Shown piece after piece: positions 10,504 through 25,664 of a stretch of DNA of 64,000 bases (position 1 is the stretch's first letter; each line of letters begins with the position of its first letter). The translations under genes and the position numbers were made by a program. The DNA is from Chitiniphilus purpureus. Lineage in GTDB: Bacteria; Pseudomonadota; Gammaproteobacteria; Burkholderiales; Chitinibacteraceae. Below the pieces are notes generated by a model. That model ran no database searches and was not told where the DNA came from. It was given only the letters and a program-made list of their open reading frames with translations. The stretch is from NCBI RefSeq assembly GCF_025642115.1, contig NZ_CP106753.1:1449501-1513500 (forward strand), given 5' to 3'.

Positions 10504-11505
10504 CTATCGCAGCGGATCAACCTTGATCGCCTTGCGGTAGTGCTTCGTCATCGTCACCGTCGAGTGCCCCAGCCTTTCGTTGGCAACGGCCAGGTCCAGC
10601 TCGTCGGTGGCGCTCTTCGAGCGCAGGTCGCGCAGCTGGAAGTTCACGCCCGAGGCCTTGCGGGCGCGGTCGAACATGCCGCGCAGTTTGGCGTAAGTCA
10701 GGGCTTGGCCCTTGGCATCGCGGATCAGATGGCTGGATGCCACATGACCGGGCTCGACCGGTCGAGCCAGGATGCGCTCGATCACCTTGGCCAGCTCCCC
10801 GGTAATGGCCACACCCACCAGCTTCTTGGTCTTGCCTTGCCGGGTCCATAGCCGGCGATCCTTGATGTCGGTGCGCATCAGGCGGATCACATCGGTTACG
10901 CGCTGGCCGATCAGCAGGTAAAGGTCCATCGCGTCCTGCAGCGGCGGCTCGGCCACGGCATAGACAGCGCGGAAGTCCTCATCGAACACGTACACCTGCC
11001 GGCCGGTTTCCTTGTGGCCGGTGATGCCGGAGCACGGGTTCTGCGCCTCGGTGATGCCCCACTCGCGCGCCTTGTTGAACAGGTGAGAGAGCAGCGCCTT
11101 CTCGCGGTTGGCGCGCACCGGTGCGGTCTTCCCCCGAAGATCCAGGTATTTGCGCACATGCACCGGCTTGATTGCGTCGATTGGCATGGCGCCGAATACT
11201 GCCTCGATATGCTTGAATTCCTGATCGTTCTTCCGCTGGGTTTCTGCGGCCTTGGTTGGATATACCTCGCGCTGGTAGCGCTTGATCAGCTCCGAAACGA
11301 TGTTCGACCGCACATGGCTGTCGGCCCCGGAATCAAGCCGCCCGTACTTGGCAAATGCGGCTGCCCGATCCTTGCCGAGGTTGATCCAATCGCGGCCGTT
11401 GCCGTCCGGGCGTTCTGCCAGATAGTAATAGGTAGTGCCGCGCTTACCTTTGCGCGCAAACATCCTGGCCGGTAGATCGGCGTTCTTCTTGCGAGGTGGG
11501 GCCAT
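10504..11505 (-). CDS. int: Tyrosine-type phage integrase
   Basis: This 333-residue site-specific recombinase integrates and excises the prophage at tRNA-Leu. The N-terminal part (1-90) is a phage integrase arm- and core-binding region, and a SAM-like helical domain follows. The catalytic domain shows Arg202 (LLIGQRVTDVIRL), a Lys in RQGKTKKL (222-229), LRDLRSKSATD (291-301, box II Arg295, with Arg in place of the usual His), His314 (ERLGHST) and the nucleophile Tyr323. It starts directly after the stop of the DUF4224 gene. A terminator follows. It sits near attL, as expected for a phiCTX-like arrangement. Confidence 0.95.
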   Translation of the reverse strand: MAPPRKKNADLPARMFARKGKRGTTYYYLAERPDGNGRDWINLGKDRAAAFAKYGRLDSGADSHVRSNIVSELIKRYQREVYPTKAAETQRKNDQEFKHIEAVFGAMPIDAIKPVHVRKYLDLRGKTAPVRANREKALLSHLFNKAREWGITEAQNPCSGITGHKETGRQVYVFDEDFRAVYAVAEPPLQDAMDLYLLIGQRVTDVIRLMRTDIKDRRLWTRQGKTKKLVGVAITGELAKVIERILARPVEPGHVASSHLIRDAKGQALTYAKLRGMFDRARKASGVNFQLRDLRSKSATDELDLAVANERLGHSTVTMTKHYRKAIKVDPLR

Positions 11506-14143: not shown

Positions 14144-16168
14144 TCAGTGCAGGGATGGCCGCGGGCGGTCCGGCGGGACGTGCGGCGGGGAGAATCCGGG
14201 CGAGGTGGCGATGGCCGGCCCGGATGCCGGTGCAGGTTTCCAGCGGCCAGCCCTATCCCAGGTGCCGCCGGTGATTGCGAGCTCGAGATCCCGGCGCCAA
14301 GTGACGGCGGAATCGGCGTTTTGACGTTCCAGCCGGGCCACTTGGCGAGCGGTGGCTTCGGGCTGGTTACAGTTATTCACACAGGTCCAAGTGCTCGCGG
14401 CTACGCCGCTGCGCTGAAAAGCGTCGACCTGCTGGTGTTCGCAGTCTGCCAACGCGCGGCGGCCCCACTCGATGGACCAGCTGTGCAGCTTGGTCTGGAC
14501 GCGCTCGACGACCTCACCGAGTACCACGCGGCGGCCGCACATCACCCGCTCGCGCACTACCACCGCAGCTCGGCGCAGCACTGGCTCCCCGAAACGATTG
14601 GAGGGCAGGCGCTGCTCGCCGGTATTCGGGCAAGCCTCTTGCTCGTGCTCGAACGTCACCCGGTAACCGCTACCGATGGCGCACCACGCCCGCATGAACA
14701 TGGCCCAGTCGCCCATGTCGGCGGCGCGGTGCAGCTCGCGTAGCATCATTTCGTTTTCGCTGGCGAACAGATCGGCCTTGCGCAGCTCGCGCCAGATCGT
14801 CACTGGCGGTGTGCCTAGGGTCTGGAACTGGCGGATACGGTGATTGCTCGCCCACTTGGCCACGCGGTCGGCGCCATCCTCGGCGGATAGGCCTGACTCA
14901 TCGTCGGTATCCATGCGGTGACCATCGATGTTCTTGGCCAGATACTTCGAGATGTACCCGACGGCGCTGCCCTTGCGCGGGTCGATCGCCTCCACCGTCA
15001 TGCGATGGTCGGCCGCGCCGGCCTCGGTGCCATCCTCTTCCAGCGCCTTGGCGCGCAGGATGGCCAGCATCTTGGTCGCGCGATCCTTGGCCACCCACAA
15101 CAGCAGGTGCCAGTGCGGGCAGCCGTCGTGGTGCGGCTCTGCAACCCGGATGCCAAACGGCGAAATGGCGTGTTTCTTAAACTGGGCGCGTGCCCTGGCC
15201 CACAGCGCGCACAGGTAGTCCTGAACGTCGCGTGCGGTAAAGCGCGGGTGGCCAGCCTTGCCGTACTTGTCGCTGCTCGGGTGGTACTTGCTGGGCGCAG
15301 TCAGCGTGATAAACCAGGCCGAGAGGCCGGCTGCTTTGGCCACCTCTTCCATGCCGCGGGCGCGCACCATCAACTCGGTGCGGCGGATGGCCGGGTTGGA
15401 CACGTTACGCTTGCTCAGCTCTTCCAGTGTCGCGGTATACCCGGTTTCGTTGGTCGCTTCGGCGGCGGCCAACATCAGGCGATTGCGACGGGCCCGGGCG
15501 CACAAGCGCCGATAGGTCGGCTGGGACAGATAGGCCGAACGCGTGCGCTTCACCTCACCGAGGCACACATAGGCGTGCTCCAGGACACCGGTCACACGCC
15601 GCTTGAGCCGGCCGCGCCAGAACTTTTCGTCCCCCAGGCGGCGCACCACGTAGGCGCGCTGCTTTTCGGTCAGCTCGTGTAATGGCTCTACGATGCCGGC
15701 GGCTTCGGCCTTGAGCCACGCCTCGATCACATAACGTGGGCGGCGGACGAAGCGCTCGCCGTCGCGCACCCTGAACACCTCGCCCGTTTCCGCCTGGACC
15801 AGAATGCGGGCGCACTCATCCGCCGCGACCCGCGCCATGCTGGACAGTTCGTCGTCATCCTTGTCCAGTGGCAAACCCGTGTCACGCAGCCTGGTGGCGA
15901 ACTCCCGCGCCCAGCAATTGGCAGCGACCAAGCGACGATTGGACTCCGCACCGTTGAAGTGATCCCTGCCCGGCAGCACCTCCACCTCACCGCGGCGTTT
16001 GATCCACACGCCCATCGCGGCATAGGCCAGCTCTTCCGGCAGCCCGTGCAACAGCGCGCGTGCGGCGGTGCGCTCCTGCCGGCGCACGCGGTCGCGCAAC
16101 TTGGTGATGGTGTGGGGCAGGGGCTGTGTGTTCACAACACACGCTACCGAAGCGGGGCGGCCCATCAT
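14144..16168 (-). CDS. A: Rolling-circle replication initiator (P2 gpA-like)
   Basis: This 674-residue HUH endonuclease nicks the phage origin in cis and starts rolling-circle replication. The central domain shows FITLTAPSKYH (286-296), the HUH metal motif PHWHLLLW (351-358, His352 and His354) and the catalytic pair GYISKYLAKN (404-413, Tyr405 and Tyr409), as in P2 gpA. The first 230 residues are the family's N-terminal region, and the C-terminal 200 are more variable. The length is close to P2 gpA. The P2 origin lies inside the A gene, and the same may hold here. It is leftward with the other early genes. A rightward cassette sits just upstream. Confidence 0.93.
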   Translation of the reverse strand: MMGRPASVACVVNTQPLPHTITKLRDRVRRQERTAARALLHGLPEELAYAAMGVWIKRRGEVEVLPGRDHFNGAESNRRLVAANCWAREFATRLRDTGLPLDKDDDELSSMARVAADECARILVQAETGEVFRVRDGERFVRRPRYVIEAWLKAEAAGIVEPLHELTEKQRAYVVRRLGDEKFWRGRLKRRVTGVLEHAYVCLGEVKRTRSAYLSQPTYRRLCARARRNRLMLAAAEATNETGYTATLEELSKRNVSNPAIRRTELMVRARGMEEVAKAAGLSAWFITLTAPSKYHPSSDKYGKAGHPRFTARDVQDYLCALWARARAQFKKHAISPFGIRVAEPHHDGCPHWHLLLWVAKDRATKMLAILRAKALEEDGTEAGAADHRMTVEAIDPRKGSAVGYISKYLAKNIDGHRMDTDDESGLSAEDGADRVAKWASNHRIRQFQTLGTPPVTIWRELRKADLFASENEMMLRELHRAADMGDWAMFMRAWCAIGSGYRVTFEHEQEACPNTGEQRLPSNRFGEPVLRRAAVVVRERVMCGRRVVLGEVVERVQTKLHSWSIEWGRRALADCEHQQVDAFQRSGVAASTWTCVNNCNQPEATARQVARLERQNADSAVTWRRDLELAITGGTWDRAGRWKPAPASGPAIATSPGFSPPHVPPDRPRPSLH

Positions 16169-19236: not shown

Positions 19237-19722
19237 ATGACCTTTGGTCATCGGCTACGTGCCGAGCGAGAGCGAGTGGGGCTGAATCAAAAGGAATTCG
19301 GGGCCATCGGGGGCGTCTCGAAAACGACCCAGCTCAACTACGAAGCCGACGAACGGCACCCCGATACCAAATACTTAGATGCGATCGCTGCCCACGGAGT
19401 GGACCTTGTCTTCCTTCTGACCGGACGCCGCGACCCATATGCCAACAACCCCGAGCACCAGCTGCTGCTCGGTGCCTATGGCACCGCCTCGCCCGAGCTG
19501 CGCCAAGCCGCGCTGCGCGTGCTGCTGTCCGGCCAAGCCGTGCCCGCCGCCGGCTCCGTGACGCAAACCGCGTCCGGCGCCCACGCCACCAACGTGAGCG
19601 GCAGCCACAACACGGTGAACAGCCCAAGCCCCACCACGCACGTGGCCGGCGACATCGGCCAACAGGTAGCGGGGAATGTGACGGTGAAGGGTGGCTTCAA
19701 CATGGGTGGGAAGAAAAAATGA
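19237..19722 (+). CDS. XRE-family phage repressor (C-type)
   Basis: This 161-residue protein has an N-terminal helix-turn-helix (residues 5-62): LRAERERVGLNQKEFGAIGG, then SKTTQLNYEADERHPDTKYL. It should keep the prophage silent by binding the intergenic repeats. A short helical part (72-100) may dimerise. The C-terminus (100-161) is unusual: Ala/Ser/Thr/Asn-rich with SGSHNTVNS, then HVAGDIGQQVAGNVTVKGG (135-153), and it ends in GGKKK. There is no LexA/S24 peptidase motif, so induction is probably not by RecA-driven self-cleavage. A GGTGAGGG lies upstream of the ATG. Confidence 0.82.
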   Translation: MTFGHRLRAERERVGLNQKEFGAIGGVSKTTQLNYEADERHPDTKYLDAIAAHGVDLVFLLTGRRDPYANNPEHQLLLGAYGTASPELRQAALRVLLSGQAVPAAGSVTQTASGAHATNVSGSHNTVNSPSPTTHVAGDIGQQVAGNVTVKGGFNMGGKKK

Positions 19723-19761
19723 ACCCGGTTCTGCTTGCCGAAAAACATACGCAGCCAAGGT

Positions 19762-19780
19762 GTAACTAAAAAACAGTTAC
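19762..19780. promoter_or_regulatory. Inverted repeat before hicA
   Basis: GTAACT (19762-19767) and AGTTAC (19775-19780) flank a seven-base A-rich spacer, 28 bases before the hicA ATG. It fits an operator for HicB autoregulation. It has no T-run, so it is not a good terminator for the repressor gene. Confidence 0.4.
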
Positions 19781-19807: not shown

Positions 19808-20053
19808 ATGACCAAGAACGACAAGCGCCTGCAACGCCTGAAAACCATCCCAGCGGACTACCACTGGGACGAGCTGCGCGCCTTGTTGGAATCGTTGGAC
19901 TGGACCTTGGTCCAATCAGGCGGCGGCTCTCACTGCTTCTTCGAGCATGTGTCTGGCCGCCGCTTGAACACTTACCGACCGCACCCAGGCGGCATCATGA
20001 AGCGCTACCAGCTCAAGGAAGTAGTTGCTTTGCTCGATGAGATGGGTGTGTGA
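19808..20053 (+). CDS. hicA: HicA-like mRNA interferase toxin
   Basis: This 81-residue protein has the HicA double-stranded-RNA-binding-like fold. An N-terminal extension, MTKNDKRLQRLKTIP, precedes WDELRALLESLDWTLVQSGGGSHCFFEH, and the C-terminal KRYQLKEVVALLDE helix follows HPGG. The GSH motif contains the catalytic His (residue 42) of HicA toxins, which cleave mRNA. It is the first gene of a three-gene cluster directly behind the repressor gene, separated by a short inverted repeat. It appears intact. Confidence 0.83.
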   Translation: MTKNDKRLQRLKTIPADYHWDELRALLESLDWTLVQSGGGSHCFFEHVSGRRLNTYRPHPGGIMKRYQLKEVVALLDEMGV

Positions 20054-20074
20054 GCGATGATTGAAAGGATGAAG

Positions 20075-20578
20075 ATGATGGATAACGTGCTGGAGTACCG
20101 GGGGTATCACGGCTCGGTTGAGTTCAGCGCCGAAGACCGCTGCTTTTTTGGGAAGCTGCTGTTCATCAACGATGTGATCATGTACGACGGCACCTCCGTC
20201 GATGAGCTTGAAGCAGCCTTCCGCAGCCAGGTAGATGCCTACCTTGCACACTGCGAGGAGCGCGGCGCAGAGCCGAACAAGCCGTGCAAGGGACAGTTCA
20301 ACGTGCGCGTATCGCCAGAGCTACACCAGAAGCTGGCTGTGCTGGCCGTGAGTAGGCGCACCTCGCTGAATGATGTGGTGAAGGAGGCGCTGGAGTGCCA
20401 TGTGCGCAAGCCGGATACGGTGGAACACAAGCATCACCATGTGCATGTGATGCAGACGACGACACGATCCCCCGTCGAGATGGTGGAGCAGCTTTCTGCC
20501 AGTGTCCGCCCCAGTGCCTTTCTTGAACCGAGCGGAATTGATATTGGAGAAACGCAGTGGCTCCAACCTTCGCACTAG
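20075..20578 (+). CDS. hicB: HicB-like antitoxin with C-terminal extension
   Basis: The 167-residue protein has an N-terminal HicB RNase-H-like part (NVLEYRGYHGSVEFSAEDR, FFGKLLFINDVIMYDGTSVDELEAAF) and an RHH DNA-binding part (FNVRVSPELHQKLAVLAVS, SLNDVVKEAL). After about residue 115 comes an additional tail of about 50 residues with a His cluster (HKHHHVHVM) and a hydrophobic Trp-containing end. Plain HicB proteins usually stop near the RHH part. Such tails in antitoxins next to SecB-like genes are chaperone-addiction (ChAD) sequences. The start is set at 20075 because GAAAGG lies six bases upstream, and an ATG at 20057 is also in frame. Confidence 0.82.
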   Translation: MMDNVLEYRGYHGSVEFSAEDRCFFGKLLFINDVIMYDGTSVDELEAAFRSQVDAYLAHCEERGAEPNKPCKGQFNVRVSPELHQKLAVLAVSRRTSLNDVVKEALECHVRKPDTVEHKHHHVHVMQTTTRSPVEMVEQLSASVRPSAFLEPSGIDIGETQWLQPSH

Positions 20579-21009
20579 TCTCGTTCCGGGTGACGGAATG
20601 CGGCCTGCGGAATACCTTGCCCGACAGCAACGGATTCAAGATCGATTTCGTTCCAGAATGCACATTGCACATTCGGGAGAGCAAGCGCCCTTACGTTGTT
20701 GTTCGCGCCAGCATCTATGTGCGCAATGAAACGCAGCCCCATGAAGAGATAGATCTTGATGCCCCGGCCTTTGCCGCCACGCTGACCACTGAAGCGTCCA
20801 TCGTTTTTCCGAAGGTGCAGAGCAAAGACGAGCTGCAGGCAAAGATGGACGACCCTCAAGCCCGGGCAGATGTTGTGGCTACGGCCATGCCGTTGACGTT
20901 GCGGCAACTGCGATTGCTTCTGGAAGGCGCCGGACTCAGCACGAAGGGGGTTCCATTGAACATGGTTCCCGAGGTAATTGAGCTGGGTCCGGAAGGCGAC
21001 GCCTGCTGA
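20557..21009 (+). CDS. SecB-like chaperone of a toxin-antitoxin-chaperone module
   Basis: This 150-residue protein starts at a GTG with GGAG seven bases upstream and overlaps the end of hicB by 22 bases. The pattern follows the SecB fold: three long strands (FALVSFRVTECGL, KIDFVPECTLHIRE, YVVVRASIYVRN), a fourth strand with TLTTEASIVF, then a helix, then MPLTLRQLRLLLEGAGLSTKGVPLNMV. The last resembles the SecB LYPYxRE...LPP region. The position after an antitoxin with an extended tail supports a TAC chaperone that shields the antitoxin. Overall sequence identity to classical SecB is low, so structure prediction would settle it. Confidence 0.68.
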   Translation: MAPTFALVSFRVTECGLRNTLPDSNGFKIDFVPECTLHIRESKRPYVVVRASIYVRNETQPHEEIDLDAPAFAATLTTEASIVFPKVQSKDELQAKMDDPQARADVVATAMPLTLRQLRLLLEGAGLSTKGVPLNMVPEVIELGPEGDAC

Positions 21010-21232: not shown

Positions 21233-21394
21233 GGCTAAAAAGCCAGTTATGGCTTACTGTTTTTTCGTCCAATCACGAACCAAGATCCATCGGAGCAACA
21301 GACGTAATCCAGTGCCAGCGTGATTGGTCAGTCTGCATTGGGCGGATAAAAGCATGATCGTCTTTTTGGGTGCACTTTGATTCAAGGGCATGCA

Positions 21395-22741
21395 ATGTCG
21401 TCTTCCAATTCCAGAAGCAAATACCAGAAGAAGCCATCGGGCCCCAAGGCCACTGCCTCGGTGCCCACCACGGCGCCCAAGCTGGCTGTTCCAAAAGCTG
21501 CAGCGTCCAAACCCGCCTCGCCGTTTGCCAGCCTCACTACAGGTGAGGTGCGCGGGCTTGCCGCGCAGCAGGAGATTCGCACAGTGCGGCAAAAGGGGCT
21601 TCAGAAAACGGGGGTGGATCCCCTCGATGGGTTGAAGCCGACCAATGATCTGCTCCACCGGGCCGCAAGCTCGGGCGGCCCCGCTTTTCCTACTGTGCTG
21701 TCCCGTACTGCCGTTGCCCCGGCTCGGACGCGGCCTGGGCCGGATTTCGCCTCGGCAGAGAGCTTGCAAAACAAGTACCAGGTATTGCTGCGCGGGACTG
21801 AAAAGAGGGGTGAAGTCATTGGCAAGGATTCGGGCTTGCTCACGCCCGGCCAGGTGCGCGGGTTTGAGGCCCAGCGCGAGATCCGCGAGCTGCGGAAAAA
21901 ATCGAGCGGCGACCCCCTGGAGGGCTTGCGGCCGACGAACGACAGCCTGCATGCCTATGCGGAGGCCACCCTGGCCTCGACAGTGAAGGATGCCCGAGGG
22001 ACGGTGTTAACGGGCAAAGCCGCCGAACGGGAGAAAATGGGGCGCATCGGCGCCGCCATGCAGGGCCATGGGCTGGTGCATACCCCGAATCGCCCGGGCG
22101 AAGTGCTGCTGGGATCGCGTTCGTCCGGCGAGTACAAAGCGCTTGCAGACGAAACCACATCGCTCACACGCAAGAGCCGCGCAGGAACGGACATGACCGC
22201 AGAGCGCGGCCAAGCGCGGGTGGCAAATGTGGTGAACTGGAATATCAACCGCAACGATGCGTTCATGGCCGGCGCCCTGTTGGGGCATAACACCTTCAGC
22301 TTGCCCCTGACCAACGCGCAGTCGGACTACGTGAGCGATAAGCAGAAGCGCGGGGCACCCCCTGGCCGGGTCACGATTCGAGAGATGGCCCAAGTCAATG
22401 ATTTGGCGCCGATGCCCAGTGGACCGGTGAGGAAATCCGACCGCTACCAGGTGGGCCAAAGCAAAGCGCTATCGCCGATGCACACCCCCGGTGGCTTGGT
22501 GCAGCATCTACCCGCGATTGGGCAACCGGCGCAGGACAAGCCGATCCCGCACTTCAACGCGCTGCCTGGCGTGACTCAGATTCCCGTCTCCACAGGCACC
22601 GGTAGGCGTGGCGGCACGAGTAGTGGCAGCACCATGCCTTCCCTCGCTTCTACGAGCCAACCGACCAACACGGGCTTCAAGCGGGGCGGCGGCGGTCGAG
22701 GCAGGGGCGGACGCAATGGTGGTGGGTCATCCGGCTTTTAG
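21395..22741 (+). CDS. Unknown 448-residue protein with internal duplication and Gly/Arg-rich tail
   Basis: I do not recognise this protein. After a Ser/Lys/Pro/Ala-rich low-complexity start (1-45) there are two similar units. LTTGEVRGLAAQQEIR with DPLDGLKPTNDLLH (about 47-88) recurs as LTPGQVRGFEAQREIR with DPLEGLRPTNDSLH (about 149-186). A central region (about 230-320) contains NVVNWNINRNDAFMAGALLGHN. The tail is Gly/Ser-rich and ends in an RGG-like stretch. There is no signal peptide or membrane helix. It is the first gene of a rightward operon with the next two genes. It could be an exported or nucleic-acid-binding effector, but that is speculation. ATG 21395 was chosen (AAGGG upstream) over a TTG at 21377. 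Confidence 0.6.
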   Translation: MSSSNSRSKYQKKPSGPKATASVPTTAPKLAVPKAAASKPASPFASLTTGEVRGLAAQQEIRTVRQKGLQKTGVDPLDGLKPTNDLLHRAASSGGPAFPTVLSRTAVAPARTRPGPDFASAESLQNKYQVLLRGTEKRGEVIGKDSGLLTPGQVRGFEAQREIRELRKKSSGDPLEGLRPTNDSLHAYAEATLASTVKDARGTVLTGKAAEREKMGRIGAAMQGHGLVHTPNRPGEVLLGSRSSGEYKALADETTSLTRKSRAGTDMTAERGQARVANVVNWNINRNDAFMAGALLGHNTFSLPLTNAQSDYVSDKQKRGAPPGRVTIREMAQVNDLAPMPSGPVRKSDRYQVGQSKALSPMHTPGGLVQHLPAIGQPAQDKPIPHFNALPGVTQIPVSTGTGRRGGTSSGSTMPSLASTSQPTNTGFKRGGGGRGRGGRNGGGSSGF

Positions 22742-22780: not shown

Positions 22781-23053
22781 ATGGAAAACGCTTACCTCAC
22801 CCCGCTACGCCCGCCCTTTGACAGCGCGGTCTCCGACGCCATTACCGCTGCGGCCGACGATTGGGGCGGCGGTGCCAAGCGCATGGATGTGGGCATCGCC
22901 GATGAGCGCGGCCAGATCTATCGCCGCGTGCGCGCCTGGGGCATGGGCGAGTACACCCGCCTGGTGAATCAGCTGAAGGAGCGCGGGTTCGCGAATGAAG
23001 GCGCCGGCCGTGGCTACGACGATGTGTTCCGCTTCGTGGGCGGTGCCGCATGA
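22781..23053 (+). CDS. Unknown 90-residue protein, middle gene of the operon
   Basis: A small soluble protein with pieces KRMDVGIADERGQIYRRVR and MGEYTRLVNQLKERGF, which suggest strand-turn-strand then helix, and a Gly-rich GAGRGYDDVFRFVGG end. It starts 39 bases after the 448-residue gene and overlaps the next gene by ATGA (23050-23053), so it is co-translated with it. No family is recognised. Confidence 0.55.
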   Translation: MENAYLTPLRPPFDSAVSDAITAAADDWGGGAKRMDVGIADERGQIYRRVRAWGMGEYTRLVNQLKERGFANEGAGRGYDDVFRFVGGAA

Positions 23054-23859
23054 CCCAACCGCAGCATCATATTGCCGGCGATGTGGGCGTGGTGGCGCAT
23101 GGGTCGGTGACCATTCATGGTGGCCTGCAGATGAGCGCGGCAGCCAACCAGGACCAGGGGGATGCCCTGATTGGCGCGCAGCGAGCCCGGCTGCATGCAC
23201 TCGTGGCGGAAATCCAGGCACTGCGCGGTACCAGCAGTGAAGAGGATGCGCAAGCGGCGTGGCAGGTGATGCACCGCGCCACCGGGCGCAAGCTGGCCGA
23301 CATGACGCAAGCGCTGTTTGCTGCTGGCGAGGCGGCGCTGCTGGCCGAGATCGAGGCGCTGACGGGCGAGCGCCGCCGGCAAAGCCTGCTGCGCCTGATC
23401 CTGACCCGCACCAGTGAGGACGCGGGCCTGAAACAGAGCGCGGCGGGCTATGCGCTGCGCCACTACGGCACGGGCTATTTCAAGGATCTGGACTTCGCCC
23501 AGCTGCAGGGCGTGCTGACCCATCTGGACGCCCTGGCTCAAGCCCCGGTGACGCCAGACGTGTGCAACGCCTGTGCCAGCCATCAGGAGCGGGTGACCCA
23601 GCTGCAGCGCGACAACAAGGCGCTGCGCGCGGCGGCGCGGAGTATTCAGGACAAGCGGGACCGCGAGCACGAAGCCACGGCCACCCGGCTAGGCGAAGAG
23701 CGCGACCAGCTGAAAGCAGCGCTTGCCACGGCACGGCAGCGAGAAACGGATCTGCAGCTGGCCCATGCCGCCCATTTGGAAACGGTACGTGGGCGCTGGA
23801 TGGTGGTGGCGGCGATGGCGGGGTTTGGTGGGGTGTTGATTGGGGCGTGGTGGTTGTAA
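23050..23859 (+). CDS. Tail-anchored coiled-coil protein (269 aa) with repressor-like Gly motif
   Basis: The N-terminus carries HIAGDVGVVAHGSVTIHGG (residues 7-25), closely similar to the C-terminal motif of the phage repressor. A helical region (40-160) follows, then CNACASH (about 178-184), a long coiled coil (185-245) and one hydrophobic helix at the very end (about 249-267), which would anchor it in the inner membrane with the rest in the cytoplasm. It is coupled to the 90-residue gene by ATGA. This is compatible with a membrane-linked sensor or effector, but the function is unknown. Confidence 0.55.
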   Translation: MTQPQHHIAGDVGVVAHGSVTIHGGLQMSAAANQDQGDALIGAQRARLHALVAEIQALRGTSSEEDAQAAWQVMHRATGRKLADMTQALFAAGEAALLAEIEALTGERRRQSLLRLILTRTSEDAGLKQSAAGYALRHYGTGYFKDLDFAQLQGVLTHLDALAQAPVTPDVCNACASHQERVTQLQRDNKALRAAARSIQDKRDREHEATATRLGEERDQLKAALATARQRETDLQLAHAAHLETVRGRWMVVAAMAGFGGVLIGAWWL

Positions 23860-25062: not shown

Positions 25063-25374
25063 TCACGCCGCCATCGGCTGCACTTCGCGTTCGATGTCCG
25101 CCGCGATGGTCTGCTCGGCCACCTTGATGTCATAGGCCGTTTGCAGGTTGATCCAGCTTTGCACGTCGCCGCCGAAGTAGCGCACCAGGCGCAGGGCGGT
25201 GTCGACGGTGATGCCACGCCGCCCCAGCACGATGTCGTTGATGCGCGAGGCGGGCACATGCAGCGCCTTGGCCAGGGCGTTGGCGGAGATATGCAACGGC
25301 TTGAGGTAATCCTCGCGCAGCACCTCGCCCGGGTGGACGGGCCGCATGCCATTCTTGGGGGCAGCAATAGCCAT
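25063..25374 (-). CDS. higA: HigA-like antitoxin
   Basis: The 103-residue protein starts with the family hallmark RPVHPGEVLREDYLKPL and continues as an XRE helix-turn-helix (ISANALAKALHVPASRINDIVLGRRGIT, described) with DTALRLVRYFG and a WINLQTAYD C-terminus. It neutralises HigB and represses the operon by binding the palindrome upstream of higB. It lies 11 bases downstream of higB, the usual toxin-first order. Confidence 0.92.
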   Translation of the reverse strand: MAIAAPKNGMRPVHPGEVLREDYLKPLHISANALAKALHVPASRINDIVLGRRGITVDTALRLVRYFGGDVQSWINLQTAYDIKVAEQTIAADIEREVQPMAA

Positions 25375-25385
25375 GATGGGCTCTC

Positions 25386-25664
25386 CTAGTGGTAGTCCAC
25401 GATTTCGACGTGCTCGACCCCTTCAGCGGTCCAGACAAAGCACACGCGCCACTGATCGTTGATGCGGATGCTGTGCTGGCCGGCCCGATCGCCGTGCAGC
25501 TGCTCCAGCCGATTGCCCGGCGGGGCTCGCAGGGCATTGAGGGTGGCTGCGCTATCGAGCTGCTGCAGTTTGCGGGTGGCCACGCTGGCGATATTGGCAA
25601 ACCGGGCAACGCGCTTCCCGGCAAACAAATCCGCAGTCGCTTGGTCGGCGAAGGATCGAATCAT
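25386..25664 (-). CDS. higB: HigB-like RelE-superfamily toxin
   Basis: This 92-residue ribosome-dependent mRNA interferase shows MIRSFADQATADLFAG, the RKLQQLDSA helix, GNRLEQLHGDRAGQHSIRIN and a QWRVCFVW strand. That is the GxxxxLxGxxxGxxxIRVNxQWRxxF pattern of HigB. It appears intact, with higA directly downstream. The pair should stabilise the prophage or act against other phages. Confidence 0.92.
   Translation of the reverse strand: MIRSFADQATADLFAGKRVARFANIASVATRKLQQLDSAATLNALRAPPGNRLEQLHGDRAGQHSIRINDQWRVCFVWTAEGVEHVEIVDYH

Follow-up and report, generated by a model that had tools for sequence, protein, structure and literature searches.

A probable HicAB-type toxin-antitoxin-chaperone module in a P2-like prophage of Chitiniphilus purpureus

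Toxin-antitoxin-chaperone (TAC) systems with a SecB-like chaperone are the closest described counterparts of the locus examined here, a trio of hicA, hicB and an overlapping third gene within a 64,000-nucleotide stretch of Chitiniphilus purpureus DNA (contig NZ_CP106753.1, positions 1,449,501 to 1,513,500; hereafter the window). HicAB was counted among the chaperone-associated toxin-antitoxin families by 2014 (PMC3968373), and the HicAB TAC of Methylomonas methanica MC09, Mmet-TAC, was cloned and was controlled by its cognate chaperone in E. coli (Bordes 2016, PMC5105189). In Mtb-TAC (HigBA1-Rv1957), Trp108 of the chaperone-addiction region (ChAD) of the antitoxin HigA1 lies buried within a chaperone pocket (PMC6377645). 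The E. coli systems CmdTAC and MqsRAC defend against phages; in the former, newly synthesized capsid protein diverts the chaperone, and degradation of the antitoxin follows (PMC11618068, PMC9519451). P2-like prophages have been described as hotspots of defence genes (2022 paper on CmdTAC and MqsRAC, PMC9519451). The HicAB type of TAC seems to have been little followed since its 2016 test. A term search of a 2024 review on HicAB (PMC11594946) found neither "chaperone" nor "SecB", and among the open-access papers listed (at most 30 per search), a scope outside which most subscription papers fall, no title concerned a phage-borne HicAB TAC or a third gene like the one we call HicX below.

We interpret the trio as a HicAB-type TAC module and an accessory cassette of a P2-like prophage, with a probability of about 75%. 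The HicA and HicB domains both score above their Pfam cut-offs, and the two form a side-by-side pair of a known type II family in which the toxin gene comes first and 3 nt separate the open frames (Table 1). HicA proteins are RNA-cutting toxins. Homologues and an alignment indicate that HicB consists of a HicB-type domain with a ribbon-helix-helix part, followed by a long C-terminal tail. An inner ATG at 20078 is an alternative start that would give 166 aa and is the one used by a database copy (P0003). The third gene begins at a GTG within the end of hicB, creating a 22-nt overlap, with a GGAG just upstream. The trio occurs once in the genome, and the housekeeping SecB, the sole PF02556 match (E 7.3e-55), is encoded elsewhere (G000:C1:3681250-3681666). 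A first-pass annotation had named hicA, a tailed hicB and an overlapping GTG-start gene, and all three are present. It had given HicB about 50 additional residues; the extension is there and is slightly longer, at about 56, compared with classical relatives of mostly 110-118 aa. Its placement of the trio behind the repressor also stands, with 85 nt between the repressor end and hicA, as does its description of the trio as phage-encoded, given that a PHROG scan places it inside a prophage. It was likewise right to call the HicAB type rarer, although Mmet-TAC means that the type is not new (PMC5105189). Its further proposals, a ChAD in the HicB tail and a defence or addiction function for the trio, stay putative.

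Table 1. Positions of the module, its control element, the neighbouring repressor and the HicX genes discussed in the text
Feature	Position	Strand	Evidence or remark
hicA, toxin (mRNA interferase by family), 81 aa	19808..20053	+	PF07927 HicA_toxin, E 7.5e-12, 45.6 bits, cut-off 27
hicB, antitoxin, 173 aa	20057..20578	+	PF05534, E 8.8e-18, residues 62-112; PHROG 9151 HicB-like antitoxin, residues 8-122
HicB tail, putative chaperone-addiction region, residues 118-173	20408..20575	+	absent from classical HicBs
Third gene, SecB-like chaperone by predicted fold, 150 aa, GTG start	20557..21009	+	fold prediction
Palindrome GTAACT-N7-AGTTAC, probable HicB operator	19762..19780		conservation, uniqueness
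Prophage repressor (Xre/CI type), not part of the module	19237..19722	+	HTH_3, E 3.9e-06; PHROG transcriptional regulator/repressor families
HicX genes	L095:2263-2592, L099:5473-5730, L166:1946-2242, L167:1934-2245, L171:2012-2311; also L168, L196		profile

Mmet-TAC shares with the window a hicA, a hicB extended at its C-terminus (residues 119-159 in Mmet-TAC and 118-173 in the window) and a gene for a SecB-like chaperone; it differs in that the accessible text mentions no phage origin and in that the window chaperone is not detected as SecB by the libraries searched, the two systems being compared by description only (PMC5105189). Since the HicAB type of TAC was demonstrated in M. methanica, the window module would be a prophage-borne example of an established arrangement, with a chaperone too divergent for the libraries searched. 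Mtb-TAC is built on HigBA rather than HicAB, and no tail likeness is evident beyond the Trp in a comparison made without a tail alignment (Guillet 2019, PMC6377645). CmdTAC and MqsRAC are likewise three-gene TACs with a SecB-like chaperone; they use other toxin and antitoxin families, and defence was demonstrated for them whereas the window trio is known from its sequence (PMC9519451, PMC11618068). The trio does not belong to CmdTAC, in that its toxin is HicA and not the ADP-ribosyltransferase CmdT, and the three proteins had no PADLOC match. Ordinary two-gene HicAB pairs, including those of phages mEp234 and HK106, share HicA and the HicB core, and their alignment to the query stops around residue 128.

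Structure prediction gives the third protein a SecB-like fold. A first structure model, computed from a mixed alignment of 23 rows, had SecB and Rv1957 as its best matches. Because that alignment could bias the model, the fold was repeated without SecB-like rows, from the two Chitiniphilus sequences only, and the 19 best PDB matches of this control were again SecB or the TAC chaperone Rv1957. Both models contain strands at residues 6-19, 34-40, 46-56 or 57, and 72-83 and helices at 90-97 and 100-124, in agreement with the strand-helix pattern that had been read from the sequence in the first-pass annotation; the structure prediction it had proposed as a check thus returned a SecB-like fold, in the control as well. 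Two proteins of unknown function, 2o2a and 2hng, match the models nearly as well as SecB does, and a family not listed by the fold search is not thereby excluded.

Sequence comparison alone gave a more graded picture. The third protein has no significant match in Pfam, NCBIfam, PADLOC or PHROGs; its best Pfam match is a weak one to a Lon substrate-binding domain, below the cut-off (E 0.081). It does not match PF02556 and so is not filed as an export SecB, though it may work like one. Proof of SecB kinship from sequence only was attempted for the window protein with family libraries and profile comparisons and failed, and the similarity was not significant when the window pair, the two Chitiniphilus proteins, was tested alone. 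The profile of a wider set of third genes had H. influenzae SecB as its best PDB sequence match (E 0.0025), and profile-profile comparison of this set with 24 canonical SecBs (24 of 25 loci fetched, L151 left out) gave 93.8%, or 96.3% without the window pair. Among 19 profile matches of the set, three are named "preprotein translocase subunit SecB" and two others carry PF02556. Close relatives are few: among about 5.8 billion proteins, a search restricted to relatives that share short exact words returned only the protein itself and one hypothetical protein of Chitiniphilus shinanonensis (51% over 85%). Phage and plasmid records contained no relative except one phage match at E 0.7, and a close search of viral contigs matched only the C. 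shinanonensis third gene. In a 274-genome sample of the class, only the genome of origin matched, with no same-genus genome among the rows listed.

The tail of HicB begins with a His-rich stretch (EHKHHHVH) and has a single Trp near its end, in ETQWLQPSH. Among 31 tailed HicBs, 22 have a Trp within the last 25 residues, and Trp is concentrated in the tails (27 in 1593 residues, versus 2 in 3392 core residues); this set comprises 17 loci, including the near-copies L005/L006 as well as L100, and 14 database proteins with unknown neighbours, and does not include L166-L171. None of the HicB matches in 12 phage records, and one of those in 1111 plasmid records, covers at least 80% of the query.

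In order to relate tail and third gene, HicB loci were taken from genome contigs (best 80 of 519) and viral contigs (all 22), with at most 30 further loci from a 398-genome sample, 15 from a 41-genome sample and 30 from a 399-genome sample, dropping HicB frames that did not span model positions from 10 or lower to 105 or higher. The 155 core-covering frames were reduced to 104 by near-copy removal, with 82 of at most 125 aa (short), two of 126-139 aa and 20 of at least 140 aa (tailed). One of the 82 short rows had too little downstream DNA (3 of 128 before near-copy removal). A profile-matched third gene lies directly behind 13 of the 20 tailed HicBs (eight SecB-like, five HicX) and behind none of the 81 testable short ones, the profiles having been built from these very loci; the two mid-length HicBs also have none. 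The remaining seven tailed HicBs comprise five with an unclassified overlapping or adjacent open frame of 121-165 aa, L169 with a 90-aa frame, and L100 with no frame of at least 60 aa. The third frames of L089, L101/L102, L092, L093 and L105 are of fitting size and place and were not classifiable by profile, while those of L005 and L041 reach PF02556 below the cut-off (E 0.0017 and 0.00034). Where checked, hicA precedes hicB (19/19 loci, near-copies included). The combination of tail and third gene thus occurs more often than expected by chance, and the tail is supported as an add-on that accompanies the third gene. On a HicB tree of the 20 tailed and 63 short rows (every second one above 95 bits), the label "short" needs 5 changes (18.2 on average after shuffling), and HicX does not form a single clade; with so few columns, the tree does not resolve the number of times that tails or partners were acquired. 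Since the profiles come from the same loci and the tailed HicBs cluster loosely on a poorly resolved tree, the counts describe an association and do not count independent events. Two viral contigs that share the source number IMGVR_UViG_2757320410 carry different tailed HicAB-SecB-like modules with different tails (L097 and L098).

The prophage and a second copy of the module provide further context. PHROG matches among 20 scanned proteins outline a P2-like prophage with an integrase at 10504, a Phage_GPA-family replication protein at 14144, the repressor at 19237 and, across 25719-48145, proteins of the tail, sheath, baseplate, capsid, terminase and portal, and the module sits between the repressor and the tail genes. 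In a prophage of C. shinanonensis (L141) the same module is not directly behind the repressor; it follows a gene distantly homologous (31% over 271 aa) to the window gene at 23050-23859. DNA similarity between the two modules (83.5% over 667 bp) starts at the palindrome's edge, position 19761. This edge and the different upstream neighbour suggest a cassette-like module that brings along its own control region. The third gene of the C. shinanonensis prophage conserves the GTG start, the overlap and the N-terminal sequence. The module is also present in a same-genus genome (G658), where the HicB tail and, over the stretch compared, the third protein are the same as in the C. shinanonensis locus L004.

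Between the two Chitiniphilus modules, HicA is identical at 67 of 81 residues (83%) and the HicB core at 96 of 117 (82%), versus 20 of 53 (38%) for the tail and 54% for the third protein. Differences at third codon positions are also more frequent in the third gene (0.65, compared with 0.26 in hicA and 0.30 in the hicB core), so that faster protein evolution alone is insufficient as an explanation. The tail and the third gene may have been swapped as a pair through recombination; with or without such a swap they appear to change as a unit, as would be expected if they belong together.

The palindrome upstream of hicA is a probable HicB operator. It starts 46 nt and ends 28 nt before the hicA start, matches once in the 64-kb window and in none of 100 shuffles, and has identical arms in the C. 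shinanonensis prophage. The relaxed form GYAACT-N7-AGTTRC is present 290 to 316 bp ahead of hicB in 17 of the 19 tailed, non-redundant loci that could be tested, with both types of third gene; other hicB loci have it exactly in 3 of 83 cases, or in 25 of 83 if spacers of 6-8 are allowed. Scans for promoters and terminators told little, with no promoters and with 4 terminator-like sites against 2.7 expected.

By analogy with Mtb-TAC, Mmet-TAC and CmdTAC, the module would most likely work through chaperone addiction of HicB, with HicA released when the chaperone is diverted. The N-terminal domain of HicB would bind HicA, and its ribbon-helix-helix part would bind GTAACT-N7-AGTTAC and repress its own operon. 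Because of its tail, freshly synthesized HicB would be unstable until that tail is captured, probably via the terminal Trp (as Trp108 of HigA1 suggests), by the SecB-like third protein, which is translated from the overlapping start. Indirect signs that HicB may need the chaperone through its tail are the pairing of tail with third gene, the Trp, and the joint divergence of tail and third protein. The antidote would probably work only while the chaperone holds the tail. Were the chaperone drawn off, for instance, as in CmdTAC, by large amounts of unfolded protein from an infecting phage, or were the prophage lost, HicB would be degraded and HicA would stop translation. The binding, the addiction, the trigger, the benefit and a defence role are all assigned here by comparison with those systems, which suggests what the trio may do.

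Other explanations differ mainly in the part they give to the third gene. It might encode a SecB-like chaperone for phage export or assembly that merely lies behind an ordinary HicAB pair, with HicB self-sufficient and its tail serving DNA binding or oligomerization. We consider this improbable, even though SecB-like genes are reported for certain phages and plasmids (PMC4257090), the model has matches among viral proteins for which the same fold is predicted, two of them bearing the name SecB, and tailed HicBs without a SecB-like partner exist, namely L100 and the HicX loci. The last point also calls for caution with the TAC interpretation itself: the tail alone is no proof of SecB dependence, because related tailed HicBs carry another third protein, or none. 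A position unrelated to HicB would not account for a start codon that overlaps hicB, for a SecB-like neighbour in 8 of 20 tailed loci and no such neighbour in any testable short one, or for the joint difference in tail and third protein between the Chitiniphilus modules, whose HicA and HicB core show no such difference. Less probable still is a second antitoxin or regulator that resembles SecB in predicted shape only, a reading to which the non-significant sequence link of the window pair, the sub-threshold Lon match and the nearly equal fit of 2o2a and 2hng would lend themselves, and against which the fold recovered by the control model and the SecB matches of the wider set can be set.

A narrower function deserves more weight than either of these, though we still regard it as unlikely: the module may serve addiction or superinfection immunity only, keeping the prophage by post-segregational killing with no sensing of phages. 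Its place is next to the repressor, in a prophage that also encodes integrase, replication, tail, capsid, terminase and portal proteins and, 4 kb from the module, a HigBA-like pair; such a role has been proposed for the HicAB of phage Adephagia (PMC11594946). This leaves the retention of chaperone and tail unexplained, however, and the chaperone is the phage-sensing part of CmdTAC, with MqsRAC also being protective (PMC11618068, PMC9519451). The HicAB-type TAC remains the interpretation we prefer.

A second class of tailed HicAB loci carries a different third gene. In L095, L099, L166, L167, L168 and L171, an overlapping gene for 86-110 aa, which we term HicX, comes after the tailed hicB; its protein consensus is LxEITELLxKHYGLHEGLFDLAxEFQIGxGAVGP...PGAMxGVxKIGL. 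HicX is known in seven loci, of which two are nearly identical and one (L196) is cut by a contig end, and all five non-redundant HicX loci tested have GYAACT-N7-AGTTRC upstream. A search of 399 genomes of the order gave seven matches in six genomes; five of these, in five genomes, lie beside a tailed hicB, three being part of the profile itself, one a near-copy and one new (L196). The family may also exist outside HicAB. Genome G581 has two distant HicX-like matches (L197 and L198, E 1.4e-10 and 5.8e-4), with no hicA or hicB in the 3.2 kb examined. In Pfam, three HicX proteins had no match up to E 5, the L095 protein matched DUF4777 below the cut-off (E 0.13) and the L099 protein matched nothing; five proteins had no match in PHROGs. 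Sequence matches to the PDB were weak and to ribosomal proteins (best E 0.013), and the HicX profile showed no similarity to SecB.

HicB tails may therefore recruit more than one kind of partner. Tentatively, and with somewhat less than even odds, the tail could be a docking handle for at least two unrelated third proteins, SecB-like and HicX, the exchanged partner acting as a sensor and determining which event releases the toxin, an incoming phage being one example, while toxin, HicB core, palindrome and overlap geometry are kept. Not every tail has a partner: the HicB of L100 (L100:3125-3685) has a 76-residue tail with a basic stretch at its end and no third gene behind it.

Two neighbours of the trio were observed in the window. 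A HigB-like toxin gene (PF05015) and a helix-turn-helix gene on the other strand (25063-25664), about 4 kb from the trio, are probably a second toxin-antitoxin pair. Behind the module, a 454-aa open frame (21377-22741) contains two similar segments and has no Pfam or NCBIfam match above the cut-off.

The locus provides a compact prophage-borne example of a probable HicAB-type TAC, with a second copy in C. shinanonensis, and indicates that a probable TAC chaperone can escape standard family libraries. The two Chitiniphilus modules form a natural pair for studying tail-chaperone specificity, as tail and chaperone differ strongly and the toxin and antitoxin core do not. The HicX sister class makes service of antitoxin tails by proteins other than SecB testable, and if HicX too serves the tail, TAC-like control would not be limited to SecB.
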